A stretch of DNA of 64,000 nucleotides from Lysobacter sp. K5869 (GTDB lineage: Bacteria; Pseudomonadota; Gammaproteobacteria; Xanthomonadales; Xanthomonadaceae). The position numbers and the translations under genes were made by a program. Positions within the stretch are counted from its first letter, which is position 1; each line of letters begins with the position of its first letter. Below the pieces are notes generated by a model. It was not told the DNA's origin, did no database searches, and saw nothing but the letters and a program-made list of their open reading frames with translations. The stretch lies in contig NZ_CP072597.1 of assembly GCF_018847975.1 (NCBI RefSeq), positions 3,201,001 to 3,265,000 on the forward strand, written 5' to 3'. Positions 471 to 21,579 of this stretch are shown piece after piece.

Positions 471-1955
471 TCACGAACCGGACGCGCTTTCGGCCAATTC
501 GGCGGGCGAGGCGTCGCGCGGCCGGATCCAGGCGTAGCACAGCAGGGACAAGGCGATGCCCGCGGCCGCGGCGAAGAATAGTTCGGCGAAGGCGCCGCGC
601 AGCAGCGCGCGCGTCGTCGCCGGCAGCGCGCGCGCGACCGCGCCTTCGGCGCCGAGCGCGCCCATCAGCGCGCCGCCGCCGTGTCGCACGCGCGCGACGA
701 TCATCGCCGAGGCGGCGGCGACCACGACTGCGGTGCCGAGCGTGCGGCTCAGCGCCATCGCTCCGGTCAACGCGCCGAGCTGGCGCGCCGGCGCGGCGTT
801 CTGCGCCACTGCGTTGATCGTCGCCATGCACGGGCCGAGCCCGAACGCGACCAAGGCCAGCAGCGCGCTGGCCATCCACGCGCTCAACTGCGTCGCCAGC
901 GCGCCCATCGCGGCGAAGGCCAGCGCCGCGACCGCGAGGCCCGGCAGCACCGGCCGCTTGTAGTCGCCGCTGCGCGCGACGCTGCGGCCGCCGAGCAGCG
1001 CGCCGATCGCGCCGGTGAGCAGCGCCGGCACCAGCAGCGCGCCGGACAGCGCCGGGCGCAGGCCGTGGCCGAGCTGCCAGTACGCCGGCATCAACACCGC
1101 CACCGCGATGTAGAAACCGTACAACAGCAGGCTCGCGGCCAGCGCCGGGCCGATGGCCGGATCGCGCAGCCACGCCGGCGCCAGCAGCGGATCGGCGCTG
1201 CCGCGCTGACGGGCGAAGAAGGCCGCGCCGGCGATCAGCGCGACGGCGAGGCTCGACAGCACCGGCATCGACGTCCACGGATGGCGCGCGCCGCCCCACG
1301 ACAGCGCCAGCAAGAACGCGCTGGTGGCGGTGGCGAACAGCGCGGTGGCGGCCGGGTCGATGCGGCCCGCGCCGTCGCCGCGGCCGAGCGCGCGCAGGCC
1401 GGGCGCGCCGATCCACAGCACCAGCGCGCCCAGCGGCAGGTTGATCCAGAAGATCGCGCGCCAGTGCAGCCAATCGCTGAGCGCGCCGCCGAGCAGCGGG
1501 CCGATCAAACCGGCCGCCGCCCACACCAGGGCGAAGTAGCCGGCGTAGCGGCTGCGCTGCGCCGGCCCCGCGAGCTGAGCGACCGCCGCCTGCGCGACTA
1601 CGATCAATCCGGCGCCGCCGACGCCCTGGATCGCGCGGCCGGCGATCAGCGTGCGCATGTCCGGGGCCAGCGCGCAGACGGTCGAGCCGAGCGCGAACAG
1701 CGCCATGCATGCGCGCAGCAGCGCGCGGCGGCCGTGCAGGTCGCTGAGCTTGCCGATCACCGGCGTGGCCGCGGCGGTGGCGAGCAGATACGCCGACAAA
1801 GCCCAGCCGAGCAGGTCGAAGCCGGCCAGATCGCGCACGATCGCCGGCAGCGCGGTGGCGACGATGGTCTGCTCCAGCGCGCCGAGGAACAGCGCGAGCA
1901 GCAGGCCGGTCAGCAGGCGCGAATGGCCGGCGGGGGCGGGCGGGGCGGAAGTCAT
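471..1955 (-). CDS. MFS drug/metabolite exporter, DHA2 (EmrB/QacA) type
   Basis: This is a 494-residue integral membrane protein that probably exports a small molecule by proton antiport across the inner membrane. The N-terminus carries the typical DHA2 opening (LEQTIVATALPAIVRDL). The MFS motif A follows (GKLSDLHGRRALL). Many hydrophobic segments run to the C-terminus, and the length suits a 14-segment DHA2 protein. The start is the ATG that gives MTSAPPAPAGHSR, because it has an AGGA site about 7 nt upstream; an upstream in-frame ATG would add 39 residues that look non-coding. It is the last gene of the minus-strand PTM cluster, 130 bp after the FAD oxidoreductase gene, so export of the tetramate product is the likely role. 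The substrate is inferred from context only. Confidence 0.88.
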   Translation of the reverse strand: MTSAPPAPAGHSRLLTGLLLALFLGALEQTIVATALPAIVRDLAGFDLLGWALSAYLLATAAATPVIGKLSDLHGRRALLRACMALFALGSTVCALAPDMRTLIAGRAIQGVGGAGLIVVAQAAVAQLAGPAQRSRYAGYFALVWAAAGLIGPLLGGALSDWLHWRAIFWINLPLGALVLWIGAPGLRALGRGDGAGRIDPAATALFATATSAFLLALSWGGARHPWTSMPVLSSLAVALIAGAAFFARQRGSADPLLAPAWLRDPAIGPALAASLLLYGFYIAVAVLMPAYWQLGHGLRPALSGALLVPALLTGAIGALLGGRSVARSGDYKRPVLPGLAVAALAFAAMGALATQLSAWMASALLALVAFGLGPCMATINAVAQNAAPARQLGALTGAMALSRTLGTAVVVAAASAMIVARVRHGGGALMGALGAEGAVARALPATTRALLRGAFAELFFAAAAGIALSLLCYAWIRPRDASPAELAESASGS

Positions 1956-2085
1956 GGCCGGTCCTGGCGGTGATGCGGGAAGGAGAGACGAAAGGACGAT
2001 CGCAACAGCGGCTCGTTGCATCGCGGCGTGCGTACGGCGCGAGCGGAAGCCTCCGCTGCGCGCCGCACGCACGCCGTGCGCGCCG

Positions 2086-3813
2086 CTAAGTGCTCGCCGC
2101 GCGCGTGGTCACCAACTGCGGAAACCCGCTCGGCGGCGAGTACGCGGGCTTGGACGGCCCCACCGCATGGATCAGATGCGTGGGCAGCGGCGCGTGGTCG
2201 TCGATGCTGGCGGTGAAGTCCTTATCGTCGTCCTTGCAGATGAAGTGCATGACGTGGCGGCCCGCGGCGGCGGCGCGGATCAGGCCGCCGGTGGTGGCCC
2301 ACACGCCGGAGATGTAGAAGTTCGACAGCCCTTCCATCACCGGCCCGTGCTTCTTGATCTCCTCCTCCATGGTCTCGCCGCTTTCCACGAACGGCTGCCA
2401 GCCCAGCACGGTGCCGTCGTAGTTGCCGGTGTAGCGCACCTGGGTCAGCGGGCTGGAGACGTCGCGCACGACGATGGAATCCTTCAGCCCCGGATAGCGC
2501 TTTTCCAGCAAGCGGATCATCGCGTTGCTGACCCGGCGCTTGGCCGCGTGGTACTCGTGGCCGCGCCGCACCGGCAAGGTGTGCAGCTCCTCGCCCTTGC
2601 GCTTGCGGCTGACTTGCTCGGGGCCTTCGTTGAGCGCGCGCCACGGCGCGATGTCGCAGAAGTAAGTCGCATAGACGATGCAATGGTCCTTCGGCGCCAG
2701 CTCCGGGTAATGCTGGCTGCGGAACTGCACGTTGATGCTGGGATGGCGGATGCCGAGCATCTCCTGCGCTTCCTCGTCGTCGAGCAGATACGTGGCGCAG
2801 GGCTCGCCCTCGGGGAAGGGCTTGTTCAAGCCGAGGAAGGTGATGAAGTAGCCCGGGAAGACCATGTGCGGCTCGGCGATGGTCTGGGTGTAGAGCTTGC
2901 GGTAGGTCTCGTTGAGATAGCGCCCCTTGAGGAACTTCATCAGCGTGGTCTGGCCGTCGGCGGCGGAGACCACGATGTCGGAACGGATCTCGCGCCCGTC
3001 GCTCAGGCGGATGCCGACCGCGCGGTCGTCCTCGACCAGGATTTCCTCGACCTTGGCGTTGTAATGCACTTGCCCGCCCAGGCGCTTGTAGCGCTGTTCG
3101 ATCGAGGTCGCCAGGCCCAGCGAGCCGTGCTCGGGCACGCCGGCGGACAGGTTGGCGTGCGAGGCGAGCTGGAAGTAGAACGGCAGCACCGGGAAGTTCT
3201 GGTGCTTTTCGTAGAGGATGAAATTGAACGCCTCGCGCAGCAGCGGGTCCTTGAACTTGGCCGAGTAGTCGGTCATCAGCACGCTGATCGACTTGCGGAT
3301 GGCGTTGAAGTAAGGGAGGAAGGACGCCAGCATCTTCCAACGCTCCCAGCGCCCCATCAGCCCGACCGGTTTGAGGAAGGGGTACACCGCCAGCGCCTTG
3401 CGGAAGCTGCGCAAACCCTTGACGAAGTCGCGGATCAGCTTGGCGTCGGCCGGCGAATGCTCGATCAGGTGCGCTTCGAGCCGGTCCGGGTCGGAATAGA
3501 AATACACCGCGCGGCCGTCGCGGCCGCGCACGATGTTGAACACGTCGAAGTGGCGCATCTGCTTGCCTTGCAGCGCGCCCAGTTCCAGCCAGATCTGATG
3601 CATCTCGTTGCCCGGGCCGTTGCCGAGCAGCCAGCTGATGCAGCAATCGAAGGTGAAATCGCCGCGTTCCCAGGCCGTGCAGCAGCCGCCGGGGATTTCG
3701 TGCATCTCGAAGATCTGGGTCTTGTAGCCGTTCATCTGCGCGTAGCAGCCGGTGGACAGGCCGCCCAATCCCGCGCCGATGATGATCATGCTTTCTCGCT
3801 TGCTGCTCGCCAT
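2086..3813 (-). CDS. FAD-dependent phytoene-desaturase-like oxidoreductase, PTM cyclisation enzyme
   Basis: This 575-residue flavoprotein belongs to the family that closes the carbocycles of polycyclic tetramate macrolactams by reductive or oxidative cyclisation of the polyene chains. The FAD-binding Rossmann motif is at residues 10-16 (IIIGAGLGG), and a family-typical PGGCC follows near residue 43. Further conserved blocks are LGLATSIEQRY and, at the C-terminus, GVWATTGGLIRAAAAGRH, which is the FAD/substrate-closing segment of phytoene desaturases. The start ATG has AGGAG 7-8 nt upstream. It begins 13 bp after the stop of the other FAD enzyme gene and is clearly a paralogue of it. In PTM pathways two such enzymes commonly make the first and second five-membered rings. 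Which ring this one makes cannot be read from the sequence. Confidence 0.9.
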   Translation of the reverse strand: MASSKRESMIIIGAGLGGLSTGCYAQMNGYKTQIFEMHEIPGGCCTAWERGDFTFDCCISWLLGNGPGNEMHQIWLELGALQGKQMRHFDVFNIVRGRDGRAVYFYSDPDRLEAHLIEHSPADAKLIRDFVKGLRSFRKALAVYPFLKPVGLMGRWERWKMLASFLPYFNAIRKSISVLMTDYSAKFKDPLLREAFNFILYEKHQNFPVLPFYFQLASHANLSAGVPEHGSLGLATSIEQRYKRLGGQVHYNAKVEEILVEDDRAVGIRLSDGREIRSDIVVSAADGQTTLMKFLKGRYLNETYRKLYTQTIAEPHMVFPGYFITFLGLNKPFPEGEPCATYLLDDEEAQEMLGIRHPSINVQFRSQHYPELAPKDHCIVYATYFCDIAPWRALNEGPEQVSRKRKGEELHTLPVRRGHEYHAAKRRVSNAMIRLLEKRYPGLKDSIVVRDVSSPLTQVRYTGNYDGTVLGWQPFVESGETMEEEIKKHGPVMEGLSNFYISGVWATTGGLIRAAAAGRHVMHFICKDDDKDFTASIDDHAPLPTHLIHAVGPSKPAYSPPSGFPQLVTTRAAST

Positions 3814-3826
3814 GGCCGGGCTCCTG

Positions 3827-5554
3827 TCAGGCGGGGGAGGCGCTCGACGCCAGCACAGCGTCGGCGGCGTGCGCGGCGCGCGCGGGACGGTCCAGCGGCG
3901 CCTGCTTGTCCAATTGCGGGAAGTGCCCGAGCTTGCCGGTGTGCCAGCGTTCGGCGCCGCGGCTTTCGAAGGCCTGGAAATCGCGGCCGAGCTCCTGGCA
4001 GATGTACTGCATGACGAAGCGGCCGGTGGACGCGGCGCGGATCAGGCCGCCCAGGCCGACCCATTGCCCGGCCATGTAGAAGCCCTTGAGCCCGGGCAAC
4101 TGCATGCGGCCCTGGTTGACCAGCGTGTTCGCCAGTTCCTCGGCGTCGCTGAAGGCCTTCCACGCCAGGATCGAACCGTTGCTGTTGCCGGTGTAGCGCT
4201 TGGTCGTCGCCGGCGAGGCCACGTCGACCAGCTCGATCCGCTCGCCGATGCCGGGATAGCGCTTTTCCAGGAAGCCGCGCACGAAATCGGCGACCTGGCG
4301 TTTCTCGGCCCAGTAACGCTTGCGGTCCTCGGTGCGCAAGGTGCGCCAGTAGTGGAAATCGCTGAAGTAGGTGCAGTGGATCACCGCGCGGCCGGGGGGG
4401 GCGAAGCCGTCGGAATAGCGCGAGCGCAGCTGCACGACGATGCTGTTCTGCATCGCGCCCGGCAGTTGCTTGCCTTCTTCCTCGCTGAGGAAATAGGTGG
4501 TGCTGTGCGAATCCTCGGGATCGAAATCGCCGGTCAGGCCGACGAAGGCCGAGACCACGGCCGGGAACAGTTCGCCGGGCTTGTTCAACATCTCGCCGTA
4601 GAGCTTGTCGATCGCCGGGCTGGTGTACTTGCCGTCCAGCATCCCGTACAGCGTGGTGTGGCCGTCGGCGGCGGAGATCACGATGTCGGCGTAGTGGCGC
4701 GCGCCGCCTTTGAGTTCGACGCCGACCGCGCGGTCGTTCTCGACCAGGATCTTGTCCACGCGCGAGCGGTAGTTGAGGATGCCGCCGAGCGCGAGGTAAC
4801 GCTCCTCGATCGAACGCGACAGCCCGAGCGAGCCGCCCTCGGGAAAGCCGGCGTTGTTGTTGTGGGCGCAGGCCATGTTGTAGAGGTACGGCAGCACCGG
4901 AAAGGTTTCCGGGTCTTGATAGAAGATGTTGCGGAACGCGCGCCGCAGCAGCGGGTCCTGGAAGCGGTCGGCGAAGCGGTGCATCGGGGTCGCGCCGTTG
5001 CGCCAGAACAGCCGGAACGCCGGCAGGATCTTCAGCAGCGTGCGCAGCTTTTCGCCGACGCTCTTGAGCGGGTCGGGAGTCAGGAACGGATACAGCTCGA
5101 TCTTGACGAAGCGGCGCAGGTCGGCGCAGAAGGCCTTGATCGGCTCGGCGTCGGCCGGAGAAATTTCCAGCAGATGCGCTTCGAGCCGGTCCGGGTCGTT
5201 GTAGAACGTCACCGAGCGCCCGTGTTCGTCGACGACTTTATTGAACATGTCGAAGTCGCGCACGGTCTTGCCGTCGAGCGCGCCGAGTTCGCGCCAGACC
5301 CGGTTGGCGTCGTTGCCGGCGCCGGTGCCGATCAGCCATTCGATGCAGTAGTCGAAGATGTAGCCCTGGCGCGACCAGGCGGTGCAGCAACCGCCCGGCA
5401 GCACGTGGGATTCGAAGATGCGCGTCTGCAATCCGTTCATCTGGCCGTAGACGCCGGCGGACATGCCGCCGACGCCGCCGCCGATGACGATCGCCCGCGG
5501 TTTGCCGTCCGCAGACGGCCCGCGCGCGCTCCAATCGGGGCCGGTCTCACGCAT
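3827..5554 (-). CDS. FAD-dependent phytoene-desaturase-like oxidoreductase, PTM cyclisation enzyme
   Basis: This is the second paralogue of the pair, 575 residues from the chosen start. The FAD motif is AIVIGGGVGGMSAG near the N-terminus, followed by LPGGCCTAW; the C-terminal block is GQWVGLGGLIRAASTGR. The start is the ATG that gives MRETGPDWS. It lies inside the last codons of the PKS-NRPS gene, so the two genes overlap by 8 bp, which suggests translational coupling. An upstream in-frame start would add 21 arginine-rich residues encoded entirely within the PKS-NRPS gene. As in HSAF-type pathways it should act on the polyene tetramate released by the PKS-NRPS. Only two FAD enzymes of this kind are found here. 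Confidence 0.9.
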   Translation of the reverse strand: MRETGPDWSARGPSADGKPRAIVIGGGVGGMSAGVYGQMNGLQTRIFESHVLPGGCCTAWSRQGYIFDYCIEWLIGTGAGNDANRVWRELGALDGKTVRDFDMFNKVVDEHGRSVTFYNDPDRLEAHLLEISPADAEPIKAFCADLRRFVKIELYPFLTPDPLKSVGEKLRTLLKILPAFRLFWRNGATPMHRFADRFQDPLLRRAFRNIFYQDPETFPVLPYLYNMACAHNNNAGFPEGGSLGLSRSIEERYLALGGILNYRSRVDKILVENDRAVGVELKGGARHYADIVISAADGHTTLYGMLDGKYTSPAIDKLYGEMLNKPGELFPAVVSAFVGLTGDFDPEDSHSTTYFLSEEEGKQLPGAMQNSIVVQLRSRYSDGFAPPGRAVIHCTYFSDFHYWRTLRTEDRKRYWAEKRQVADFVRGFLEKRYPGIGERIELVDVASPATTKRYTGNSNGSILAWKAFSDAEELANTLVNQGRMQLPGLKGFYMAGQWVGLGGLIRAASTGRFVMQYICQELGRDFQAFESRGAERWHTGKLGHFPQLDKQAPLDRPARAAHAADAVLASSASPA

Positions 5555-8500
5555 GGCCCGCTTCTCCGACCAGAATCCCGCGCGCCAGCGCCGCGTTCTT
5601 CTCGATGTAGTCGGCATCGAGCATGTCGGCGTGCTTGCCGTAACCGCGGAACACCTGACTGCGGGTCAGCGAACTGCCGTGCCAGGTGCCGCGCTGGCCG
5701 GTGCCGTAGAACACCAGTTTGTCCTCGTCGGAAATCACGCTGACCGGCGCGGCGATGGTGCCCAGGTTCGGGGTCTGGCTGCAGAAGCGGATGTAGTCCT
5801 TGGCCTGCTCCAGAGTGTCGTGGGCGAGCAGCTCCGAGCCGGTGTGCTTGCGCAGATGCTCGGTGAGTTCGCGCTCGAACGCCTCGAAGTGCTCGTTGCC
5901 CAGTTCGAAGGATTCCGGGATGCGGTAGGAATCCATGATGACCACGTTGGGCACTTCGCGGCCGCGGCGTTCGAGTTCCTTGGCCACTTCGAAGGCGAGG
6001 TTGCCGCCGAGCGAGTAGCCGAACAAGGTGCAGTGGCCTTCGGCGTGGATGCTCTCGATCAGGTCGGCGTAGCGCGCGACCTTGTCGTCGCCGAGCAGGT
6101 AGTTGAAGGAAACGAACTCGTACTCGGGCAGATGCACCGCGAGTTGGCGATAGACCAATCCGTGGCCCCCGGCCGGCGGGAAGCAGAAGATGGTCTGCTC
6201 GTGCCCGCGCCCGGCGTTGAAGCGCAGATACGGCTGGGCGCCGGCGACGCGGCCCAGGCTGATCGCTTCCACCGTCTTGGCCATGCCGTGCAGGGTGGTG
6301 AGCTTGAACAGCTGGCTCACCTCGATGGCGATGTTGAACTCGCTCTGCAGGTTGTAGATCAGTTCGATCAGCTTGATCGAGCTGCCGCCGACCTCGAAGA
6401 AGTCGTCGTGCAGGCCGACCTGCTGCAGGCCCAGCAACTGCTTCCAATGCTCGGCCATGCGGGTTTCGAACAAGGTCTGCGGCGGCTCGTACGCGGCCGC
6501 GGCGGCGTTGGCGTCGGGCGCCGGCAGTGCGGCCAGATCGACCTTGCCGTTGCCCGACAGCGGCAGCGCGTCGAGCTGCACGTACTGCGCGGGGATCATG
6601 AAGGTCGGCAGGTACTGCGCCAGATGCTCGCGCAGCGCGCGCCAGTTCAAGGTCTCGCCGGCGTCGGCGGCGACGCAGTAGGCGCACAGCGCGGACTCGC
6701 CGCGCGCGTCCTCGCGCACGGTCAGCACCGCCTGGGCGATGGGCGGCCATGCGGCGAGCTGCGATTCGATCTCGCCGATCTCGACGCGATGGCCGCGCAC
6801 CTTGACCTGACCGTCGGCGCGGCCGATCAGCTGCACCTGCCCGTCGGCGCTCCAGCGCGCGAGGTCGCCGGTGCGATAGACCCGCACCTGGGCGCCGTCG
6901 CGGCCCAGCGGCAGTTCGCCGAAGCGCTGCGCGGTCTGTTCCTCATCGTTGACGTAACCCGCGCAGACGCCGCCGCCGCCGATCCACAGCTCGCCGGCCA
7001 CGCCCGCCGGCACCGGCTGACGGCGCTCGTCGAGGAGGTACAGCGCGGTGTTCGGGAACGGCCGGCCGATCGGCACCATGCGGCTGCCTTCCAGATCGGC
7101 GGCGTCGCCCTCGAACCAGGTGCTGTCGATGGTCGCTTCGCTGAGGCCGTAGGAATTGATCGTGCGCGTGTCCGGCCCCGCCAGCGCGCGCAGGCGCCGG
7201 TACTCCTCGACCTTCCACACGTCCGAGCCGACCACGAGCAAACGCATGAAGTCCAGCCGCAGGTTTTCGCGCTCGCAGTAATCCATGAGGCCGCGCACCA
7301 CCGCCGGCACGAACTCGGCGGCGTCGACCTGTTCCTCGACCATCGCCTTATAGAGACGCTGAGTGTTGAACAGCAGTTCGCGCGTTACCGGCACCAAGGT
7401 CTTGCCCGAGCACAGCGCGCGGGCGAAATCGCCGGCGAACACGTCGAAGGAGAAGCTCGCCATCTGCAAGTGCGCGCGGGTCCGGTCGAGCGCGTACTCG
7501 CGCCGCCAGCCGGCATAGGCCGAGGCCCAGTTGGCGTGGGTGACCCGCACCGCTTTGGGCTTGCCGGTCGAGCCGGAGGTGTAGATCACGTACGCCGTAT
7601 CCGACGGCGCCACCGCGACATCGACCGGCGAGGCGTCGGTGTCGGCGTCGGCGATCAGTTGCAGTTCGTCCGGCGTCAGCACGTCGCCGTCCCAACCGGC
7701 CAGGCGTTCGCGGCGCTCCTCGTCGATCACCGCCAGCTTGGCGCCGGCGTGAGCGGCCATGTAGGCCAGACGTTCGGCCGGGTAGTCCGGATCCAGCGGC
7801 AGGTACGCGCCGCCGGCCTTGAGCACAGCGAGCAGGGTCACGACGAGTTCGGGCGACTTGTCCAGGCACAGCGCCACCACCGAGCCGCCGCCGACGCCGA
7901 GTTCGCGCAGCTTGCGCGCGAGCCGGTTGGAGCGGCGCTCCAGCTCGCCGTAGCTGAGCCGGCGGGTGTCGCCGCGTTCGCTCGGCACCGCCACCGCCAG
8001 CGCTTCGGGCGCGGCCTGGGCGGCGCGCGCGATCAGCGCGTGCACCGGCGCGTCGGCGACGACGGTGTCGTCGGCGCCGCTCCAGCGGCCGAGCACGTCG
8101 GCGCGCTCCTCGCGGCCGAGCAATTGCAGTTCGGCGATGGATGCCTGCGCCGGAAGCCGGGTCAGGCCGTCGAGCAGGTTGACGTAGTGCGCGGCGAGCC
8201 GCTGCACGGTCTGCGGCAGGAACAGGTCGGTGTTGTACTTGAACACGCAGTGGAACCGGCCATCGGCTTCGTCCTCATAGGCCGACAAGGTCAGGTCGAA
8301 CTGGCCTTCTTCTTCCGGCAGCTCGATGTATTCCAGGCGGTAGCCGTACTTCTCGGTCGCGACCTTGTGCGCGAGCAGGATGAACATGGCCTGGAACACC
8401 GCCGAGCGGCTCGGATCGTGCTGCAGGCCGAGCTTCTCCACCAGCAGCACGAACGGATACTCCTGGTTGTCCAGGCCGTTGAGCACGGTGCGCTGCACCT

Positions 8501-14500: not shown

Positions 14501-15032
14501 CGAAGCTCAGGTCGGCGAACTGGACGATCTTGTAGTCCAGAGTGAACGCGCCGACGAACACGCCGATCTCTTGGCCGGCCAGTTCGCCCGGCTTCTGGCC
14601 GCCGTCTTCCAGCGCTTCCCAGGCCACTTCCAGCAGCTTGCGCTGCTGCGGATCCATGTAGTCGGCCTCGCGCGGGCTGATGCCGAAGAAGGCGGGATCG
14701 AATTCGTCGAAGCCGTCGATGTAGCCGCCGCGGCCGCCGACCAGACGGCCGGGCTTGCTCTTGTCGCGGCTGCCGAGCGTGCGCACGTCGTAGCGGTTGA
14801 GCGGGGTGTCGGTGAGGCAGTCCTTGCCGTCGACGAGGTTCTGCCAGAACGCGCGGTAGTCGCTGGCGCCGCCGGGCAGGCGGCAGCCGATGCCGATGAT
14901 GGCGATGCGGTCCTCCATCGCCACCGGGCCGGCGGCCGATTGCCCGCGTGCGGCGGCGTCGTGGGCCTCGTGCGCGGCGTCGTCGCGCGCGGGGACTTCG
15001 CTGGAGGAGGGCTTCTTGCTGGAGTCCGTCAT
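5547..15032 (-). CDS. Hybrid iterative type I PKS-NRPS, polyene tetramate (HSAF-type PTM) synthase
   Basis: The 3161-residue enzyme has one PKS module and one NRPS module. The domains are: KS 41-467 (Cys214 in DTACSSS, His349, His389); AT 580-870 (Ser672 in GHSTGE); DH 938-1215 (His970 of HxxxG, Asp1135); KR 1480-1680 (GxxGxxG at 1491-1497, Ser1634, Tyr1647); ACP 1775-1850 (Ser1807 in GLDSL); C 1870-2300 (HHIISDA at 2000-2006); A 2330-2840 (YTSGSTGKPK at 2484-2493, Lys2830); PCP 2850-2925 (GGSS, Ser2885); TE 2940-3155 (Ser3007 in GYSLGG, Asp3034, His3134). There is no ER or methyltransferase. This is the organisation of the HSAF/ikarugamycin synthases, in which one PKS module is used iteratively for two polyene chains and the NRPS acylates both amines of L-ornithine before Dieckmann release. 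The assignment of ornithine rests on family and on the nearby arginase, not on a decoded pocket. Confidence 0.96.
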   Translation of the reverse strand: MTDSSKKPSSSEVPARDDAAHEAHDAAARGQSAAGPVAMEDRIAIIGIGCRLPGGASDYRAFWQNLVDGKDCLTDTPLNRYDVRTLGSRDKSKPGRLVGGRGGYIDGFDEFDPAFFGISPREADYMDPQQRKLLEVAWEALEDGGQKPGELAGQEIGVFVGAFTLDYKIVQFADLSFDTLAAHTATGTMMTMASNRISYCFDFRGPSLSIDTACSSSLVAVHLACHSLRRGETSLALAGGTLLHMTPQYTIAETKGGFLSPEGKSRTFDAAANGYVRAEGVGIVALKRLEDALRDGDPIHAVILATGVNQDGHSNGITVPNPDAQVALIQRVCGEAGIAPGSLQYMEAHGTSTPVGDPIEAKALGRALAQGREPGSECYVGSVKTNIGHTEAAAGVAGLIKTTLALKHKQIPPHINLQTVNPDIDLASMPYKIPTQLTPWPAHAGPARAAVNSFGFGGTNAHVVLEEAPPRAEDAAAAEDKAPADIGGYNLLPLTARDPAALAELAAGIAKELEREGDEAVSLDDLAYTLAHRRQHLESRLTLVYDSREALRERLAAAAAGEAHPLVLADDRRGATAPKLAWVFTGMGPQWWAMGRQLFEKEPIYRETIERCDAELRKHADWSLIELLNAAEADSLMSDTWLAQPANFAVQIALAAMWRARGVVPDAIVGHSTGEVAAFYEAGVYTLEQAVRVVVHRSRLQQTLVDTGSMLAVSLTEAEALRRIAPYGDRVSIAAVNSPAAMTLAGDQDALAEVAAQLQAEQLFAKFLTVRVPYHSAKMDPIRDELLASLEGLAPHPAKLPLYLTAKPGIATGRELDADYWWANVRNSVGFRAAIDLMAENGYELFLEIGPHPVLGHSINECFAARGASARSVPSIRRQEDEAARFAASLATLHNLGVAIDWWSLHPRGSQIALPRYPFKRDRYWVEPRPVEQIRLGQLDHPLLGRRMANAEPTWEARLDAEQQPYLQDHRIQGNVLFPAAGYIEMAVQAVRAMTGGASAAIADIELRKAMFLSDAEATTAQLSFSSDGAGFNISTLGADGGERTVHAAGSVRASQGRRAAPALDARAVRERSPLYLARSACYQQLGEMGYHYGPAFQGIEEVWIGQGEALAKIVPTEQLLGGAADHHFHPAMLDACFQALLTPQILQRQLSEGGVADTGIRLPLSIQEVRSEAIGERTLWVHAQITFDGGDELIGDILVYGEDGRALGKVAGFRAANVENASAKVGLPTIDGWLAETQWHEIAESDAQAPEQTEAGAEEPDGWLIFADEHGLGDELAALAESRGERAHLVRPGKRYKLEKDLHESSVAPGVAKDLQRLFADLDKAGAGRFGRIVHLWNLDQPSVDEADTPALQNGNSRGAYSLIALAQALSTAHPHGKLHIVTRGTQAVNRGDAVEPLGAPAWGIGRVLGYQELIAQRGKLVDLPLRAGHDPVERVAEAALLRAELLRADEDEVALRDGKRYTGRLLPAEGLTKPLPLRLRSDGAYLVTGAFGALGRLLCRTLVKRGARKLILVGRTKLPPRAQWRDTDPASAAGRAVRFLKELEQLGAEPILAQLDITDEGALRGWLADYRQRELPPIRGAFHLAGQVRDTLLADMQRDSFDPVYEPKVIGGWLLHKHLADQPLDHFVLFASIASIVTTAGQANYAAGNAFLDALAHHRRAQGLPALAVDWGPWATGMIEELGLIEHYRNSRGMSSLSPDAGMDVLERVIGQDRAQLLVATVVDWPIFMAWYSSPPPLIEELAKLGAGSGAAEHGSFVEAFRDADALTRWSLLSERFHGLIAQVMRVKPEQIDAEASLNALGLDSLLAMELRARIHTELKVALPVVTLLSSSTIGTLTEQLHAGLVELVAGDGDDDGAAQFEAHTDETRYPLTQNQNALWFLKQLNPDGFAYNIGGAVEVRTELQPELMFQAVRELIARHPSLRANFVLDRGQAVQVIRPHSEADLGLFDVQDKSWDEIHQQIVREYRKPYDLEHDPLVRFRLFKRGKDRWVIMKAVHHIISDAISTFTFIEELLSIYEGLRRKEKTELAPVRAKYLDFLNWQSKFLASREASKMLEYWKSHLPAQVPILALPTDKPRPIVQTNNGASEFFVLDRELSARIHTLAREHGATVFMVLMAAYYVLLQRYTGQDDVIVGSPVMGRTQEEFAQVYGYFVNPLPLHVDLSAQPSVAELIAQVQRTVLNGLDNQEYPFVLLVEKLGLQHDPSRSAVFQAMFILLAHKVATEKYGYRLEYIELPEEEGQFDLTLSAYEDEADGRFHCVFKYNTDLFLPQTVQRLAAHYVNLLDGLTRLPAQASIAELQLLGREERADVLGRWSGADDTVVADAPVHALIARAAQAAPEALAVAVPSERGDTRRLSYGELERRSNRLARKLRELGVGGGSVVALCLDKSPELVVTLLAVLKAGGAYLPLDPDYPAERLAYMAAHAGAKLAVIDEERRERLAGWDGDVLTPDELQLIADADTDASPVDVAVAPSDTAYVIYTSGSTGKPKAVRVTHANWASAYAGWRREYALDRTRAHLQMASFSFDVFAGDFARALCSGKTLVPVTRELLFNTQRLYKAMVEEQVDAAEFVPAVVRGLMDYCERENLRLDFMRLLVVGSDVWKVEEYRRLRALAGPDTRTINSYGLSEATIDSTWFEGDAADLEGSRMVPIGRPFPNTALYLLDERRQPVPAGVAGELWIGGGGVCAGYVNDEEQTAQRFGELPLGRDGAQVRVYRTGDLARWSADGQVQLIGRADGQVKVRGHRVEIGEIESQLAAWPPIAQAVLTVREDARGESALCAYCVAADAGETLNWRALREHLAQYLPTFMIPAQYVQLDALPLSGNGKVDLAALPAPDANAAAAAYEPPQTLFETRMAEHWKQLLGLQQVGLHDDFFEVGGSSIKLIELIYNLQSEFNIAIEVSQLFKLTTLHGMAKTVEAISLGRVAGAQPYLRFNAGRGHEQTIFCFPPAGGHGLVYRQLAVHLPEYEFVSFNYLLGDDKVARYADLIESIHAEGHCTLFGYSLGGNLAFEVAKELERRGREVPNVVIMDSYRIPESFELGNEHFEAFERELTEHLRKHTGSELLAHDTLEQAKDYIRFCSQTPNLGTIAAPVSVISDEDKLVFYGTGQRGTWHGSSLTRSQVFRGYGKHADMLDADYIEKNAALARGILVGEAGHA

Positions 15033-15147
15033 GGTCGATTCCTTGGAGATGCGTCCACGCGCGAGCGCGGCGGGCCGTGTGATCGGGTCGTCGGGTCGTC
15101 TTGCGGGTCTTTTCGGGTCTTGCTCGGGCGGATCTGAAACAAAGCGT

Positions 15148-16176
15148 CTAAGGCGGGGCGGACGGCGGGGCCGGCGGCGGATAGCGCCGCGGCCGCAGCG
15201 GATGCAACAAGGTGGAAAGCAGGGCGCGGTTGTCGGGAAAGCTGCCCGGCGCGAACAGGCCGATCGCGCGCGGCCGCTTGCCGGGCCGCCAGGTGTAGCT
15301 GCCGAACAAGCGGTCCCAGATCGACAGGTCCGAACCGAAGTGGCCGGCTTCGTCCTTGTCGGCGCTGTGGTGCATGCGGTGCAGTTCGGGACTGGCGAGC
15401 AAGTGGTTGAGCCAGCCGATGCGCACGTCGATGTTGGCGTGGACGAAATAGCCTTGCGCGATCACGAAGAGGCCGACCGCGAACAGCGCGTGAGCGGAGA
15501 AGCCGGCCCAGGCCAGCGCGAGTTGCACCACGAACTGGGCCAAGGTCACGTCGAGCACGTGGTTGACCCCGTTGTTGCCGACGTTGACCTTGTCGGGCAC
15601 GTGATGCACGCCGTGCAGCCGCCACAGCAGCGGGATGTCGTGGCCGGCGCGGTGCACGGCGTAGCTGGCGAGCGAACTCACCAACAAGGCGGCGGGGATC
15701 TGCGCCCACAGCGGCCAGCTCGGATGCAGCGGCGCCAGCGCGGTCAACGCCGCCATCAACGGGATTTGCGCGAGCGCGGCGCCGACCACGGTGAGGACGA
15801 AGTAGACGCCGTACAGGCCCCACTCGCGCCGATCCGGCCACCAACGGCGTTCGTACGGGATCAAGCGCTCCAGCAGCGCGAGATAGCCGACGGTGAGCAG
15901 CACGAAGGCGAAGTTGGCGTTGCCCAAGTCCCAGCCGCGCGCGATCGCGGCGTATGCGTAGGCGACCACCGCCAGCATCAGCAGCGGGTGGGCCCAATGC
16001 CGGAGAAAATCCGATCGCCTCGCCGGCGGCGGCGTGACCGGGTCGGCGTTCCCGCCGCGGACGCTCTCGCCGGGTTTCGGTCCGGGCCGATCCTGCTTAC
16101 CGCCGTCACGCTTTTGCTGCGACGCAACACGCGCGTGTAAAGTGCGCTCAGATAATCCTGTCATTTTCTTTTCCAT
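15148..16176 (-). CDS. Sterol desaturase/fatty acid hydroxylase-family di-iron enzyme of the PTM cluster
   Basis: This 342-residue membrane protein belongs to the fatty acid hydroxylase superfamily. In HSAF biosynthesis the equivalent SD protein hydroxylates C-3 of the tetramate macrolactam. The histidine-rich di-iron motifs are HRAGH at 175-179, HGVHH at 188-192 and HRMHH at 266-270. Hydrophobic segments lie at about 62-80, 88-103, 122-150, 160-175 and 212-242. The first 55 residues are polar and probably cytosolic. The start is uncertain: the first ATG has no visible Shine-Dalgarno, while the second, four codons in (16164), has GGAA 7 nt upstream. The gene leads the minus-strand operon, 115 bp before the PKS-NRPS. 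Its first codons are markedly AT-richer than the rest. Confidence 0.9.
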   Translation of the reverse strand: MEKKMTGLSERTLHARVASQQKRDGGKQDRPGPKPGESVRGGNADPVTPPPARRSDFLRHWAHPLLMLAVVAYAYAAIARGWDLGNANFAFVLLTVGYLALLERLIPYERRWWPDRREWGLYGVYFVLTVVGAALAQIPLMAALTALAPLHPSWPLWAQIPAALLVSSLASYAVHRAGHDIPLLWRLHGVHHVPDKVNVGNNGVNHVLDVTLAQFVVQLALAWAGFSAHALFAVGLFVIAQGYFVHANIDVRIGWLNHLLASPELHRMHHSADKDEAGHFGSDLSIWDRLFGSYTWRPGKRPRAIGLFAPGSFPDNRALLSTLLHPLRPRRYPPPAPPSAPP

Positions 16177-16695
16177 TATCTATAAGAAAATGAGAATGCA
16201 GGCGCGGTTCGATAATGAGACCGCCGCCGCGCCGCGACCGGGAAGCATTGGGCGTTTAGGCCAACTCGTTGATATGTATGGCGCAAGCGATCCCGTCGAA
16301 CCGTCCATGCGATCCTCCCGGCAGGTTTGGTTATGGTCGGCCCGGATGGGCGCCGGATACGCGCTGGCGCGTTCGGCGTGCGGCCGAAACGAATGCTGCA
16401 GATAATGCCGGCGCATATTCGCGGCAAGGCGGAGGCGCCGTCAAAGGCGCAGGCCCGATTATCTTGCGACGCGGTTCGTCCTTTGGAATATCCGTTTCCC
16501 TCCGGAAAAAATAATGTGCTGGTATTGCCCCGCCGTCGCGCGGCGCCCGGGTCGCGCCGGATGCGACCGCGGCGGCGGTCAATGACCGGGCCGCGTCCGC
16601 GCGATGACGATTCGATTGCGGCGGACGCCGCGCGAGGCGTCCGCCGCCGCGCGGCCGCCTTACCCGATTCGCCCTTCCATGGAGGAGTCACGCAG
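16177..16695. promoter_or_regulatory. Divergent control region between the hydroxylase/PKS operon and fpr
   Basis: This is 519 bp without a convincing gene. It is AT-rich for this genome near both ends, at about 16150-16220 and 16460-16520, as expected for promoters firing outwards. Close to the hydroxylase start the minus strand reads TTATAGATAAT, a -10-like sequence almost touching the start codon. Upstream of fpr a weak candidate promoter is TTGCGA (16464) with GAATAT (16486). Only short arginine-rich frames without ribosome binding sites are open here. A regulator site could not be fixed from sequence alone. Confidence 0.5.
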
Positions 16696-17469
16696 ATGCA
16701 ATTGGCGACCGAACGCGTCATCGAAGTCAGGCATTGGAACGACAGCCTTTTCAGCTTCCGCACCACCCGCGATCCGGGCTTCCGCTTCGACAGCGGTCAC
16801 TTCGTCATGGTCGGGCTGGAGATCGACGGCCGCCCGCTGATGCGCGCCTACTCGATCGCCAGCGCGCACTACGAAGAGCATCTGGAGTTCTTCAGCATCA
16901 AGGTGCCCGACGGCCCGCTGACCTCGCGCCTGCGCCACATCGAGTTGGGCGACGAGATCCTGGTCAGCCGCCGGCCCACCGGCACGCTGGTGCTCAACGA
17001 CCTCAATCCCGGCAAGCGCCTGTACTTGCTCGGCACCGGCACGGGGCTGGCGCCGTTCCTCAGCATCGTGCGCGATCCCGACACCTACGAGCGCTTCGAG
17101 ACCGTGGTGCTCGCTCATGGCGTGCGTCGCATCGAGGATCTGGCCTACGCCGACTTCATCGAGAGCGAACTGCCCAAGCACGAGTTCCTCGGCCCGCCGG
17201 TGCGGCAGCAACTGCGTTACTACCCGACGGTCACGCGCGAGCCGTTCCGCAACCGGGGCCGGCTCACCGACGGCATCGTCTCCAACGCGATGACCGATGC
17301 GCTCGGCCTGCCGCCGCTGAATCCGGCCGAAGACCGGGTGATGCTGTGCGGCAGCCCGCAGATGCTCGCCGACATCGCCGCGCTGCTGGACGAACGCGGC
17401 TTCGTCGCCTCGCCGCGCACCCGCGAGCGCGGCGACTACGTGATCGAGCGCGCCTTCGTCGAGAAGTGA
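16696..17469 (+). CDS. fpr: Ferredoxin--NADP reductase (Fpr/FNR)
   Basis: This 257-residue flavoprotein transfers electrons between NADPH and ferredoxin or flavodoxin. The FAD-binding RAYS motif is at residues 50-53 and the NADP-binding GTGTGLAP at 112-119. It ends with GDYVIERAFVEK, the closing sequence typical of bacterial subclass I Fpr; the length is also typical. The start ATG follows a strong GGAGGAG site, and longer frames upstream have no such signal. It is divergent from the PTM operon and followed by arginase after 99 bp. Homologous reductases sit in the HSAF locus of Lysobacter, so it may recycle electrons for the di-iron hydroxylase. It could equally be the general housekeeping Fpr. 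Confidence 0.92.
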   Translation: MQLATERVIEVRHWNDSLFSFRTTRDPGFRFDSGHFVMVGLEIDGRPLMRAYSIASAHYEEHLEFFSIKVPDGPLTSRLRHIELGDEILVSRRPTGTLVLNDLNPGKRLYLLGTGTGLAPFLSIVRDPDTYERFETVVLAHGVRRIEDLAYADFIESELPKHEFLGPPVRQQLRYYPTVTREPFRNRGRLTDGIVSNAMTDALGLPPLNPAEDRVMLCGSPQMLADIAALLDERGFVASPRTRERGDYVIERAFVEK

Positions 17470-17568
17470 GCGCCGCGCCGGCGGGCGCGCGAGGACGCGC
17501 GCGCGCCGGCGCCGAACCCTCATTCATCCATTGCAAGCGGCCGCCGCGGCGGCCGCCCGGGAACTCTC

Positions 17569-18489
17569 ATGAGCACTGCACCTGCGGTTTCGTTGATTGG
17601 CGCGCCGACCGATGTCGGCGCCGGTGAGCGCGGCGCGCGCCTGGGCCCGGAGGCGCTGCGCATCGCCGGCTTGCGCGAAGCGCTGCACGGCCTCGGCGTG
17701 GACGTGGCCGATCGCGGCAACCTCGACGGCCCGCCGAATCCGTGGACCGGGCCGGTCGACGGCTATCGCCATCTCGACGAAGTCGTCGCCTGGAACCGCC
17801 AGGTAATGGACGCGGTGTCGGCCGAACTGGACATGGGCCGCATGCCGATCCTGCTCGGCGGCGATCATTGCCTGGGCTTGGGCTCGATCACCGCGGTCGC
17901 CCAGCACTGCCGCGCGCAAGGCAAGAAGCTGCGCGTGCTGTGGCTGGACGCGCACGCCGACTTCAACACCAACGACATCACGCCTACCGGCAACTTGCAC
18001 GGCATGCCGGTGGCGTGCCTGATCGGCCTGGGGCCGCGCGAACTGACTCATCTGAGCGGCGAGGCGCCGGCGATGCAGGTCGATGAGATGCGGCAGATCG
18101 GCACGCGCTCGGTCGACGCGGGCGAGAAGCAACTGATCCGCGAACACGGCTTGCCGGTGTACGACATGCGCCGGATCGGCGACATCGGCATCAAGCGGGT
18201 GATGGAGGACGCGCTGGCCGACATCGACGAGGACACCCATCTGCACGTGAGCTTCGATGTCGACTTCCTCGATCCCAGCATCGCGCCGGGCGTCGGCACC
18301 GTCGTCGCGGGCGGGCCGAACTACCGCGAAGCGCAACTGGCGATGGAGATGATCGCCGAGAGCGGGCGGATGGGCTCGCTGGACATCGTCGAACTCAATC
18401 CGATCCTGGATCGCGACAACGCCACGGCGTTGGTGGCGATCGATCTGGTCGAGAGCCTGTTCGGGAAGTCGACGTTGGTGCGCGAGTAG
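17569..18489 (+). CDS. rocF: Arginase
   Basis: This 306-residue enzyme of the ureohydrolase family hydrolyses L-arginine to L-ornithine and urea. The binuclear manganese ligands are in place: GGDH at 97-100, DAHAD at 127-131, and SFDVDFLDP near residue 230. The N-terminal GAPTDVGAGERGARLGPEA is typical of arginases rather than agmatinases. It lies directly downstream of fpr and next to a PKS-NRPS expected to consume L-ornithine, so supply of that precursor is the probable local role. A general role in arginine catabolism cannot be excluded. Confidence 0.93.
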   Translation: MSTAPAVSLIGAPTDVGAGERGARLGPEALRIAGLREALHGLGVDVADRGNLDGPPNPWTGPVDGYRHLDEVVAWNRQVMDAVSAELDMGRMPILLGGDHCLGLGSITAVAQHCRAQGKKLRVLWLDAHADFNTNDITPTGNLHGMPVACLIGLGPRELTHLSGEAPAMQVDEMRQIGTRSVDAGEKQLIREHGLPVYDMRRIGDIGIKRVMEDALADIDEDTHLHVSFDVDFLDPSIAPGVGTVVAGGPNYREAQLAMEMIAESGRMGSLDIVELNPILDRDNATALVAIDLVESLFGKSTLVRE

Positions 18490-18608
18490 GGCGGCGGGCG
18501 GGTTCGCGTTCGCGACGTTCCGCGTCGCGGCTGCGCTGGCGCGGCCCGCGTTTTCCGCGTCGTCCCCGTTGCGAGTTCGCGCGCCGTTCCGCGCGCCTCT
18601 CCCAAGCC

Positions 18609-18693
18609 GTCACCCTCGCGAAGGCGGGGACCCAGAGGCTTCAGAGCCATGTCGCGGTAAAGCCCTGGATTCCCGCCTTCGCGGGAATGACGA
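18609..18693. repeat. Intergenic element with inverted ends, CGAAGGCGGGA family
   Basis: Inside the 561-bp gap between arginase and the TonB receptor, the left end reads CCCTCGCGAAGGCGGGGACC and the right end reads GGATTCCCGCCTTCGCGGGA, so the ends are inverted copies about 40 bp apart. The right end is itself a perfect hairpin (TCCCGC cttc GCGGGA type). This is a different family from the TGTAGGAGCGGCG elements elsewhere in the window. I see no gene in the rest of the gap (18490-19050). Confidence 0.6.
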
Positions 18694-19050
18694 CCGGTAA
18701 GCCTCGTCGCGCTTCCCTCATAAGTCGCCAGCAAGCGACCGCGCGCGATCTCGAGAGCATCCCCTCGAACACGAACTTTTCCGAACGTTCGTGCGCCAAT
18801 CTCCGGCGCAATTGTTTGCCGACACAAAGGTGCTGCGACGCGGCATGACGCGTGCATCCAGCGTGCTAATTTCCAGCCCCATCGGGCATCCCGCGCAACC
18901 CGGCCGACTTCCCCCGCCGATCGCGTATACGTCGTGGATGCCCCGCGCACGGGGAGTGCGCGGAATCGCGCGGGTGCGCGCGCCAACGTCATCGTGAGAC
19001 ATCGAAGTCCAGCGTTTTCGCCGAAACGTCGCTAAAGAGGGGAATGCCTG

Positions 19051-21579
19051 ATGATCGCTCGCCCGCTGGGCCGCAAGGCCCTGTCGTTCGCCGTCGCCCT
19101 GAGCCTGGCCGCGTCCGCCGCCGCGCAGGCGCAACCGTCCGCGCCTGCGCCGGCGCAGGAGGAAGAGGCCAAGACCCTGGCCGGTCTCACCGTCACCGCG
19201 CAAAAACGCGAGGAGGCGATGCAGGACGTGCCGATCTCGATCACCGCCTTGCCCGAGCAACTGCTGCGCGACACCGGCGTGCGCGACATCAAGGACGTGC
19301 AACTGCTGGTGCCCGGCCTGACCGTCACCAGCACCCAGAGCGAAGTGCAGACGGTGGCGCGCATCCGCGGCATCGGCACGGTCGGCGACAACGCCGGCCT
19401 GGAATCCTCGGTCGGCGTGGTCATCGACGGCGTCTACCGTCCGCGCAACGGCGTGGGCTTCGGCGATCTGGGCGAGATCGAGCGGATCGAAGTGCTCAAG
19501 GGGCCGCAAGGCACGGTGTTCGGCAAGAACACCTCGGCCGGCGTCATCAACGTCATCACCCGCCGCCCCGACTACGACACCACGGCCGAGGGCGAGCTGA
19601 CCTTCGGCAACTACGGCGCGCTCGGCGCGGCCGGTTCGTTCAACACGCCGATCGGCGAGCACGCCGCGTTCCGCGTCTACGGCGCCAAGCGCAAGCGCGA
19701 CGGCTTCGTCGACGTGGAAACCGGCCGCGGCCCGCGCGCCGAACGCGAGGACGGCGACCAGAACTTCCACACCTTGCGCGGCCAGTTGCTGTTCGAGCCG
19801 ACCGAGAACCTCGACATCAACCTGATCGCCGACTTCACCAGCCGCGAGGAGAACTGCTGCGTCGGCCTGACCACGGTGCGCGGGCCGACCGCGGCGATCA
19901 TCAACGCGCTCGCCGGCGGCACCGGCGTGGCGCCGGTCGCCGATCCGTTCGCGCGGCGCGCCTGGAGCAACCGGCCGACCACGCAGGACATCAAGGACAA
20001 GGGCGTTTCCGCCGAGATCAACTGGATCACCCCGTGGTTCGGCGGCGCCACCCTGACCTCGATCACCGCCGCGCGCGACTGGCAGGCGATCAACGGCCTG
20101 GACTTCGATTTCTCCACCGCCGACATGATCTACCGCAATCCGAACGAGGACGAGTCGTTCACCGGCTTCAAGCAGTTCAGCCAGGAATTCCGCCTGACCG
20201 GCGCGACCAACAAAGTCGATTGGATGGTCGGCTTGTTCTATTCCGACGAAGACCTCAAGCGCCACGATTCCTACAGCCTGGGCGCGGCCTACGAGCCGTA
20301 TCTGTCGACCGCGGTGCTGAGCCAGATCGCCGCGCGCTTCCCGGCCGGCGTGGTCAACACCGCGAATGCCGCGACCTTTCTCTCGCAAGCCACCGGCCGC
20401 CCGTTCGGCAGCAGCTTCGGCGGGCTCGGCGCGCTCGACCGCTATCAGCAGAACAGCAAGAGCGTCGCGCTGTTCACCAACAACACCTGGCACGCCACCG
20501 ACAAACTCGATCTCACCTTGGGCCTGCGCTACACCAAGGAGAACAAGGAACTCGATTCGGTCTACAGCAATCCCAATGGCGGGTTAGGTTGCGGCGCGGG
20601 CTTGGCCAATCCGCAGCGGGTCGGGCAGGCGTTGGCCGCGCGCGGCGTGCCGCTGGCGGCGGTGAACGCGTTGGTGCCGCAGGTGATCGGTTTCATGTGC
20701 TTGCCCTGGGCCAACCGTTTGCACGACGGGCGGATCACCAACCAAGAGCGCGACGAGAAAGAATGGTCGGGCACGATCAAGGCCGCGTACCGCTGGAACG
20801 AGCACGTGATGGGCTACGCCTCGGCCGCGCGCGGCTACAAGGCTGGCGGCTTCAACCTCGACCGCGTGCAGTCCTCGAACGGTTTGTCCGCGGGCACGGC
20901 CGGCATCACGCCGGTCAACGACACTTCGTTCCCCGGCGAGTTCGTCGACAGCTTCGAGCTCGGCGCCAAGACCACCTGGGCCGGCGGCAACCTGCTGCTC
21001 AACGCGACCTTGTTCCATCAGACCTACAGCGATTTCCAGCTCAACAGCTTCCTCGGCACCAGCTTCGTGGTGCGCTCGATTCCCGAAGTGAAGTCCCAGG
21101 GCATCGACACCGAAGTGCTGTGGCAGACCGGCATCAAGGGGCTGATGCTGCAGGGCGGCTTGATGTACACCGACACCAAGTACGGCAAGGACCCGCTGCC
21201 CGACGCGGATCTGGCCAAGCTGCCCGGCGCGCGCGCCAGCTTCGCGCCGCTGTGGTCGGCCTCAGCCGCGGTGACCTACCAGTGGGACTTCGGCCCCGAG
21301 CTGATCGGCCGCTTCAACATCGGCGCCAAGTATTCCTCCGACTACAACACCGGCTCCGACCTCGACCCGGAAAAGGCGCAGGACGCCTACACCGTGGTCA
21401 ACGCGCGCCTGGGCATCGGCGCCAAGAGCCGGCGCTGGATGGTCGAGGCCTGGGCGATGAACCTGTTCGACGAGGAATACAAGCAAGTCGGCTTCGACGC
21501 GCCGCTGCAGACCGGCTCGTGGAACGCCTTCCTCGGCGCGCCGCGCACCTACGGCGTGACCTTGCGGGTGATGTACTGA
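19051..21579 (+). CDS. TonB-dependent outer membrane receptor
   Basis: This 842-residue outer membrane receptor uses TonB energy to move a ligand into the periplasm. It has a signal peptide (residues 1-27, ending AAAQAQ) and a TonB-box-like segment (LTVTAQKR). The plug domain includes the family signatures VPISITALPEQLL and KGPQGTVFGKNTSAGVINVITRRP. The barrel closes with an aromatic residue near the C-terminus (GVTLRVMY). The start ATG follows AGAGGGG. It is transcribed in line with fpr and arginase, 561 bp downstream, and comparable receptor genes accompany HSAF loci. The ligand is unknown, and no siderophore synthesis gene is near it. A role in uptake or sensing of the tetramate is possible but is only inference. 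Confidence 0.92.
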   Translation: MIARPLGRKALSFAVALSLAASAAAQAQPSAPAPAQEEEAKTLAGLTVTAQKREEAMQDVPISITALPEQLLRDTGVRDIKDVQLLVPGLTVTSTQSEVQTVARIRGIGTVGDNAGLESSVGVVIDGVYRPRNGVGFGDLGEIERIEVLKGPQGTVFGKNTSAGVINVITRRPDYDTTAEGELTFGNYGALGAAGSFNTPIGEHAAFRVYGAKRKRDGFVDVETGRGPRAEREDGDQNFHTLRGQLLFEPTENLDINLIADFTSREENCCVGLTTVRGPTAAIINALAGGTGVAPVADPFARRAWSNRPTTQDIKDKGVSAEINWITPWFGGATLTSITAARDWQAINGLDFDFSTADMIYRNPNEDESFTGFKQFSQEFRLTGATNKVDWMVGLFYSDEDLKRHDSYSLGAAYEPYLSTAVLSQIAARFPAGVVNTANAATFLSQATGRPFGSSFGGLGALDRYQQNSKSVALFTNNTWHATDKLDLTLGLRYTKENKELDSVYSNPNGGLGCGAGLANPQRVGQALAARGVPLAAVNALVPQVIGFMCLPWANRLHDGRITNQERDEKEWSGTIKAAYRWNEHVMGYASAARGYKAGGFNLDRVQSSNGLSAGTAGITPVNDTSFPGEFVDSFELGAKTTWAGGNLLLNATLFHQTYSDFQLNSFLGTSFVVRSIPEVKSQGIDTEVLWQTGIKGLMLQGGLMYTDTKYGKDPLPDADLAKLPGARASFAPLWSASAAVTYQWDFGPELIGRFNIGAKYSSDYNTGSDLDPEKAQDAYTVVNARLGIGAKSRRWMVEAWAMNLFDEEYKQVGFDAPLQTGSWNAFLGAPRTYGVTLRVMY

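Follow-up and report, generated by a model that had tools for sequence, protein, structure and literature searches.

Which PTM (PoTeM) can be made by an HSAF-type cluster that has lost two of its four ring-forming genes, and does such a cluster still work? The question is raised by a locus of Lysobacter sp. K5869, contained in the 64,000-nucleotide stretch analyzed here (the window). The strain's own genome, complete at 5.97 Mb, is designated G000, and other genomes of the genus carry similar numbers. In published pathways, OX3 closes the first ring, OX1 or OX2 the second, and OX4 the six-membered ring (PMC6950151, PMC8399814), and the two second-ring enzymes differ in stereoselectivity (PMC6950151).

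The synthase, hydroxylase, arginase, reductase, receptor, and exporter that the original prediction had described as in the HSAF locus are all present at 471-21579 (Table 1). A single iterative PKS module joined to an NRPS, with the full KS-to-TE domain set, adjoins at least one phytoene-dehydrogenase-like FAD cyclase, as expected of a PTM cluster. With the HSAF cluster of Lysobacter enzymogenes (Group II: OX1, OX2, OX3, and OX4), the window shares the synthase, OX2, OX3, the SD hydroxylase, FNR, arginase, TonB receptor, and exporter. However, the Group II trio of FAD cyclases (OX1, OX2, and OX3) is reduced to enzymes B and C in the whole genome, and the OX4 dehydrogenase for the six-membered ring is missing from both the genome and the spacer behind C, so that such a ring is not expected. 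The gene set that is left, an OX3-type enzyme with a single OX1/OX2-type partner and without an OX4 homologue, is that of the 5/5, alteramide-like type.

Table 1. Features of the PTM locus, with predicted functions.
Feature	Position	Strand	Remarks
MFS exporter (DHA2/EmrB-like)	471..1955	-	~85-86% identity to G017 and G019 exporters
Spacer between C and exporter, 130 nt	1956..2085	-	OX4 position in six relatives
FAD enzyme C, OX3/PtmB2 orthologue (first five-membered ring)	2086..3813	-	97% identity to G017 and G019
FAD enzyme B, OX2/PtmB1 clade (second five-membered ring)	3827..5554	-	
Iterative PKS-NRPS, KS-AT-DH-KR-ACP-C-A-PCP-TE (polyene tetramate precursor)	5547..15032	-	Domains and motifs
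SD/FtdA-type hydroxylase, fatty-acid-hydroxylase superfamily (3-/C25-hydroxylation)	15148..16176	-	
Ferredoxin/flavodoxin-reductase-like protein (FNR)	16327..17469	+	
Arginase-family protein (putative ornithine supply)	17569..18489	+	
TonB-dependent receptor of the HSAF locus	19051..21579	+	

Some gene starts needed adjustment. The exporter, whose gene comes straight after C, likely begins at the ATG at 1955 rather than 2072; the ORF of B is open from 5617, but the homologous ATG is at 5554; and FNR probably starts further in, because the ORF has 257 aa in seven of nine relatives. The AF2 model of B (pLDDT 87.7) has the carotenoid desaturases 4rep and 4dgk as its top PDB matches.

In six congeners, the locus runs PKS-A-B-C-OX4-MFS. 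By similarity and by the standard gene order OX1-OX2-OX3-OX4, A, B, and C would correspond to OX1, OX2, and OX3; the window thus retains B and C, while A and OX4 are absent. The ATG of B overlaps the PKS stop codon (ATGCGTGA) at the site where A starts in relatives, just as the ATG of A does in G017 (ATGTCGCCTGA). The OX4 deletion extends to the stop codon of C, and no OX4 remnant was found in the 130-nt spacer, of which only the last ~40 nt match G017 and G019. Synteny ties the locus to three-FAD clusters in G017, G019, G009, and G003, and it holds on both flanks in each of the six genomes examined, which were taken from the nine others that have the cluster. The window also branches from within the three-FAD clusters, both in the PKS tree and in the C tree, the latter drawn from 24 chosen named loci out of 80, with one segment (L144) omitted from the C set. 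Nesting and synteny together indicate in-place loss of A and OX4. A fusion or chimera of A and B was rejected, given that window B aligns with B, not A, from about the fifth residue on.

The original prediction had counted only two phytoene-desaturase-like FAD enzymes and no OX4/IkaC/PtmC-type gene in the window, and had named OX1 or OX4 homologues left of position 1 or elsewhere in the genome as the finding that would overturn it. Both counts extend to the whole genome. Enzyme B as query against G000 returned only B and C, and the PF01593 search added one weak match (24.5 bits, at 1.19 Mb); neither search found a third FAD paralogue. For OX4, an authentic orthologous protein was used as probe because PF08240 (14 matches) discriminates OX4 poorly, and it detected no orthologue in G000, the best match being a 39% homologue at 5.72 Mb. 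True orthologues (81-100%) occur in six of the 20 genus genomes, exactly the three-FAD ones, and G000 is not among them. Within 20 kb to the left of the window, no ORF of at least 120 aa matches any of eight cluster-protein queries, a set that excluded OX1 and OX4, both of which are covered by the whole-genome searches. Paralogues supplying OX1 or OX4 from elsewhere in the genome were accordingly sought with the B, PF01593, and OX4 queries, and none was found.

It is highly improbable that a 5/5/6 PTM is still made through an unlinked MDR reductase, the 5.72-Mb homologue or another, that replaces OX4. Although this homologue spans OX4 residues 4-351 at 39% identity, it lies 2.5 Mb from the cluster, and homologues of its kind (37-41%) occur throughout the genus, in 20 of 20 genomes whether or not they carry a PTM cluster, and accompany the true OX4 in six; it is therefore probably a housekeeping enzyme of the alkenal/prostaglandin-reductase type. 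A replacement would also accommodate the m/z 511.28 ion of L. firmicutimachus, for which only two flavin enzymes are reported and whose ion and fragments are consistent with alteramide (PMC11451712). According to a report on L. capsici, the 5/5/6 maltophilin has the same formula as alteramide A and the pair was not told apart there (PMC8235233); since the tricycle shares its mass, the ion is no proof of a bicycle.

Which second-ring enzyme was kept is the informative part, on which the original prediction was silent. Of the ten positions that separate the A and B groups, nine have the B-type residue in window B, the B group comprising 14 sequences of which window B is itself one. Trees of the FAD enzymes, which the original prediction had proposed, place C as described above and, in a quick first-FAD tree, group window B with actinobacterial B1 enzymes, not with the OX1 type (A). 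The Lysobacter B clade has a support of 100 and its join with Streptosporangium 92 (SH-aLRT), while A groups with Actinophytocola/Saccharothrix; a recent Lysobacter duplication yielding A and B is unsupported, as the two group with different actinobacterial genera. This tree omits five segments with in-frame stops (L103, L113, L114, L122, and L142) and labels L117 as 'noox4' though its contig ends inside C. A B1 enzyme of S. albidoflavus is 68.9% identical to B and 67.8% to A of G009, and SkoB1 and OX2 share 69% identity (PMC8399814, Table 3).

Comparable gene sets exist elsewhere. Streptosporangium saharense (L085) and Saccharopolyspora (L150) combine a PKS-NRPS with two FAD enzymes, a B1-type and an OX3-type one, like the window, and have no OX4/PtmC homologue above 50% identity in the stretch examined; the first FAD enzyme of L085 is 74-76% identical to Lysobacter B. 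These dehydrogenase-less clusters belong to another phylum, whereas the state of the window arose when genes were lost from a larger set. The 5/5/6 clusters of Streptomyces (pactamide ptm, SGR810-815, and sko) share an SD hydroxylase and a B1+B2 FAD pair homologous to B and C, but possess the OX4 homologue PtmC/SGR811/SkoC, and several a P450 (PMC8399814, PMC6950151); the window has no such homologue. Among 79 assessable named PTM clusters, 15 lack OX4, meaning no match above 50% identity in the stretch examined, to ~8-9 kb past C. PMC13101523 further describes a Pseudoalteromonas with a PTM cluster that makes NMR-proven alteramide A. Two-flavin-enzyme Lysobacter clusters with a predicted alteramide have also been described in L. 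firmicutimachus, sp. BMK333-48F3, and sp. K5869 itself (PMC11451712, a 2024 preprint), and the window resembles them in both respects. OX4-less PTM clusters are thus common, alteramides are known compounds, and both two-FAD Lysobacter clusters and an alteramide-like ion from one of them are already on record; to call the locus the strongest candidate for unusual chemistry was an overstatement.

Within the genus, three other two-FAD genomes were found (G007, G008, and G016), and these keep the OX1-type A with OX3, without OX4, as opposed to the OX2 and OX3 of the window. No further configuration emerged from a family-wide search (8 of 297 genomes, all in this genus, in rows that omit G004 and G009 although both have the cluster) or a class-wide one (1 of 369, the window's own genome).

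The remaining genes look functional from the dN/dS of seven genes and the conserved columns of both FAD enzymes. All eight ORFs are open, and all active-site motifs sought in the PKS-NRPS are present. Across seven cluster genes, dN/dS ranges from 0.06 to 0.33; against G017/G019, it is 0.18/0.20 for B, 0.08/0.06 for C, and 0.18/0.18 for part of the PKS. Conserved columns are broken at 0 of 175 positions in B and 0 of 242 in C. A decaying cluster, now silent or low-yielding and bound for further gene losses, is an unlikely alternative: such intact motifs, columns, and dN/dS values argue against it, as does the start/stop overlap that the deletion preserved at the PKS-B junction, even though the window lacks two of the four genes for ring formation, evolution is faster in SD and FNR (0.29-0.33), and 10 of 20 genus genomes lack tandem PTM FAD genes.

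The evidence argues with good confidence for an HSAF-locus PTM cluster that lost OX1 and OX4 in place by two clean deletions, still functions, and would yield a 3-hydroxylated 5/5 bicycle of the alteramide type. Under the functions assigned by orthology, the synthase would form the polyene tetramate, C the first five-membered ring, and B the second, with the C14 oxygenation proposed for OX1/OX2/SkoB1; that OX2 alone may suffice for this in Lysobacter is suggested by secondary text on OX1/OX2 and by analogy with Streptomyces PtmB1/SGR813/SkoB1. Reductive closure of the six-membered ring would be absent with no OX4, SD (with FNR) would hydroxylate the carbon that derives from ornithine, and the product would leave through the MFS pump. 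In line with the original prediction of a hydroxylated, alteramide-like 5/5 bicycle or a new variant, these steps lead us to expect an alteramide-type bicycle, C29H38N2O6, with [M+H]+ at ~511.28, and not the antifungal HSAF (~513.30).

Instead of alteramide itself, the product may be a diastereomeric or differently oxidized 5/5 bicycle that is specific to OX2 and distinct from the product of the OX1-keeping lineages, a possibility that we regard as real but doubtful. The different stereoselectivity of OX1 and OX2, the B-type residues and B1 grouping of window B, and the retention of A in the other two-FAD clusters found all point this way, as do the 10-epi (trans H-10/H-11) products of B1-type clusters (PMC6950151, PMC8399814). 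Nevertheless, the alteramide enzyme may be none other than OX2, given that PMC6950151 also lists deOH-alteramides as trans H-10/H-11.

PTMs are antifungal leads, and this locus shows that the precise excision of genes can alter their ring patterns; one of the two deletions here left the start/stop overlap of the operon intact. What is new, judging by orthology, is that two Lysobacter lineages have kept opposite second-ring enzymes, OX2 in the window and OX1 in G007, G008, and G016; diastereomeric products are therefore predicted, a natural test of OX1 against OX2. Tentatively, both lineages, at the same chromosomal locus and without OX4, may secrete diastereomeric 5/5 bicycles as end products, so that second-ring stereochemistry, not ring number, would be the trait fixed differently, and the OX1/OX2 pair of HSAF producers may serve to turn one precursor into two product series that differ in stereochemistry. 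As a natural OX1/OX4 double deletion, the strain should reveal the output of OX2 itself without engineering, and setting that output against the compound of L. firmicutimachus, probably G008, should tell the stereochemistry of OX1 and OX2 apart.

The polycyclic tetramate macrolactam (PTM) cluster of Lysobacter sp. K5869 (genome G000; one contig of 5,968,034 bp, of which the window covers C1:3201001-3265000) contains the genes listed below. The synthase has the PTM domain order, and the motifs sought in it were all found. The original prediction described a reduced cyclase set in which two FAD enzymes, here called B and C, are present and the OX4 dehydrogenase is lacking, and this description is correct.

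Genes of the PTM cluster, with dN/dS against the congeneric genomes G017/G019 for the seven genes compared (the exporter is not among them)
Gene	Coordinates	Strand	Position	dN/dS (G017/G019)
MFS exporter	1955-471	-		
FAD enzyme C	3813-2086	-		0.08/0.06
FAD enzyme B	5554-3827	-		0.18/0.20
Iterative PKS-NRPS	15032-5547	-	precedes B, C	0.18/0.18 (compared part only)
SD-type hydroxylase	16176-15148	-	upstream of PKS-NRPS	0.33/0.31
Reductase (FNR)	16327-17469	+	upstream of PKS-NRPS	0.32/0.29
Arginase-family gene	17569-18489	+	upstream of PKS-NRPS	0.09/0.14
TonB receptor	19051-21579	+	upstream of PKS-NRPS	0.18/0.18

A search of the whole genome for further OX paralogs or an OX4 yielded nothing beyond B and C. 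The B protein as query matched only these two, with no third FAD paralog, and a PF01593 search added one weak match at 1.19 Mb. No OX4 ortholog was found in G000 with the true OX4 protein of G017; the best match was a 39% homolog at 5.72 Mb, of a kind (37–41% identity to OX4) present in 20/20 genomes of the genus. The solved NADP-dependent oxidoreductases PDB 9ji7 and 9jp8 lie near OX4 (783 and 530 bits with the same query), and their structures are of use for the mechanism of reductive cyclization. Large NRPS loci also occur outside the window at ~905–919, 3907–3930 and 4059–4116 kb; the genome has 39 condensation-domain matches, 37 above the curated cut-off, the PTM synthase among them.

Tandem FAD genes were found in 10 of the 20 genus genomes searched, G000 included. 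Six (G003, G004, G009, G011, G017 and G019) have the order PKS-A-B-C-OX4-MFS, with OX4 orthologs of 81–100% identity, three (G007, G008 and G016) have PKS-A-C-MFS, and G000 alone has PKS-B-C-MFS. Both flanks were syntenic in all six genomes compared, out of the nine others with the cluster. With such synteny around varying gene sets, the PTM clusters of the genus appear to descend from a single locus in which the set of cyclases varies in place. G007 and G008, counted as two genomes in the one-per-species set, are 99.6% identical over 24.3 kb of the PTM region and nearly identical in rpoB.

The window groups with G017 and G019 within the three-FAD clusters in both the PKS tree (SH-aLRT 97–100) and the C tree (99 for the trio), and the rpoB tree (five rows, 100/100) also places G000 in their clade. 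From these placements, A and OX4 were lost in G000. The G007/G008/G016 group stands beside all other Lysobacter clusters in the PKS tree, whereas its neighbor in the rpoB tree is the G000 clade.

The start of gene A in G017 lies within the last bases of the synthase gene (ATGTCGCCTGA). Gene B begins in the corresponding way in the window (ATGCGTGA) and has a B-type N-terminus. The OX4 start of G017 is overlapped by the stop of C, while in the window TAG ends C and 130 nt lead to the exporter. No OX4 remnant was found in this spacer, which matches G017 and G019 only in the last ~40 nt before the exporter. The OX4-MFS spacer of G017 (locus L036, ~13500–14080) carries REP-like inverted repeats (TCATTCCGGCGAACGCCGGAA ... 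TTCCGGCTTTCGCCGGAATGA), seen by eye, and is missing in the window; these repeats may have been a substrate for the OX4 deletion.

Published work assigns closure of the first five-membered ring to OX3 and formation of the six-membered ring to OX4, while the second five-membered ring is closed by OX1 and OX2 with differing stereoselectivity (PMC6950151, PMC8399814); SkoB1 is closest to OX2, at 69% identity (PMC8399814). Tree analysis of both FAD enzymes identified C as an OX3 ortholog (C tree). A quick 94-sequence tree with SH-aLRT support only places window B among the B enzymes of Lysobacter, a clade adjoining Streptosporangium B1 enzymes, and groups Lysobacter A with Actinophytocola and Saccharothrix. 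Window B is B-type at 9/10 residues separating A from B, being itself one of the 14 B-group sequences. Streptomyces albidoflavus B1 shows 68.9% identity to B of G009 versus 67.8% to A; with values so nearly equal, the presumed assignment of A as OX1 and B as OX2 rests mainly on gene order. The first FAD enzymes of four actinobacterial loci (L140, L146, L157 and L159) are A-type (OX1-like) by BLAST, only L140 and L159 join Lysobacter A in the FAD tree, and three of the four clusters have no OX4 homolog in the examined stretch.

At columns with at least 97% conservation, B breaks 0/175 (89 sequences) and C 0/242 (86 sequences). The AlphaFold2 model of B has a mean pLDDT of 87.7, and its nearest PDB structures are carotenoid desaturases (4rep, TM 0.67 by query length).

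Among the best 80 of 100 named PTM loci found, 64 have an OX4 homolog beside C, 15 have none above 50% identity within the examined stretch (for L158, just 1.6 kb past C), and one, whose contig ends in C, cannot be scored. The first FAD enzyme of the 15 is B-type in 12 and A-type in 3 (BLAST). A two-FAD PTM cluster without OX4 is therefore an already known architecture. PMC11451712 records two-flavin-enzyme clusters in L. sp. BMK333-48F3, L. sp. K5869 and L. firmicutimachus, the last with an alteramide-like ion whose tandem MS is termed less informative but consistent. Maltophilin fits the same mass as alteramide A, and another study could not separate them (PMC8235233). The product of the locus is most likely a 3-hydroxylated 5/5 bicyclic PTM, and the original prediction of such a hydroxylated compound, rather than the 5/5/6 HSAF, is probably right. 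What appears to be new is that the second-ring enzyme kept in the window is of putative OX2 type, whereas the one kept in the other two-FAD Lysobacter genomes found is of OX1 type; the literature searched, with subscription papers mostly outside reach, held no mention of this contrast. Retention of the OX2-type rather than the OX1-type enzyme predicts a different stereochemistry.
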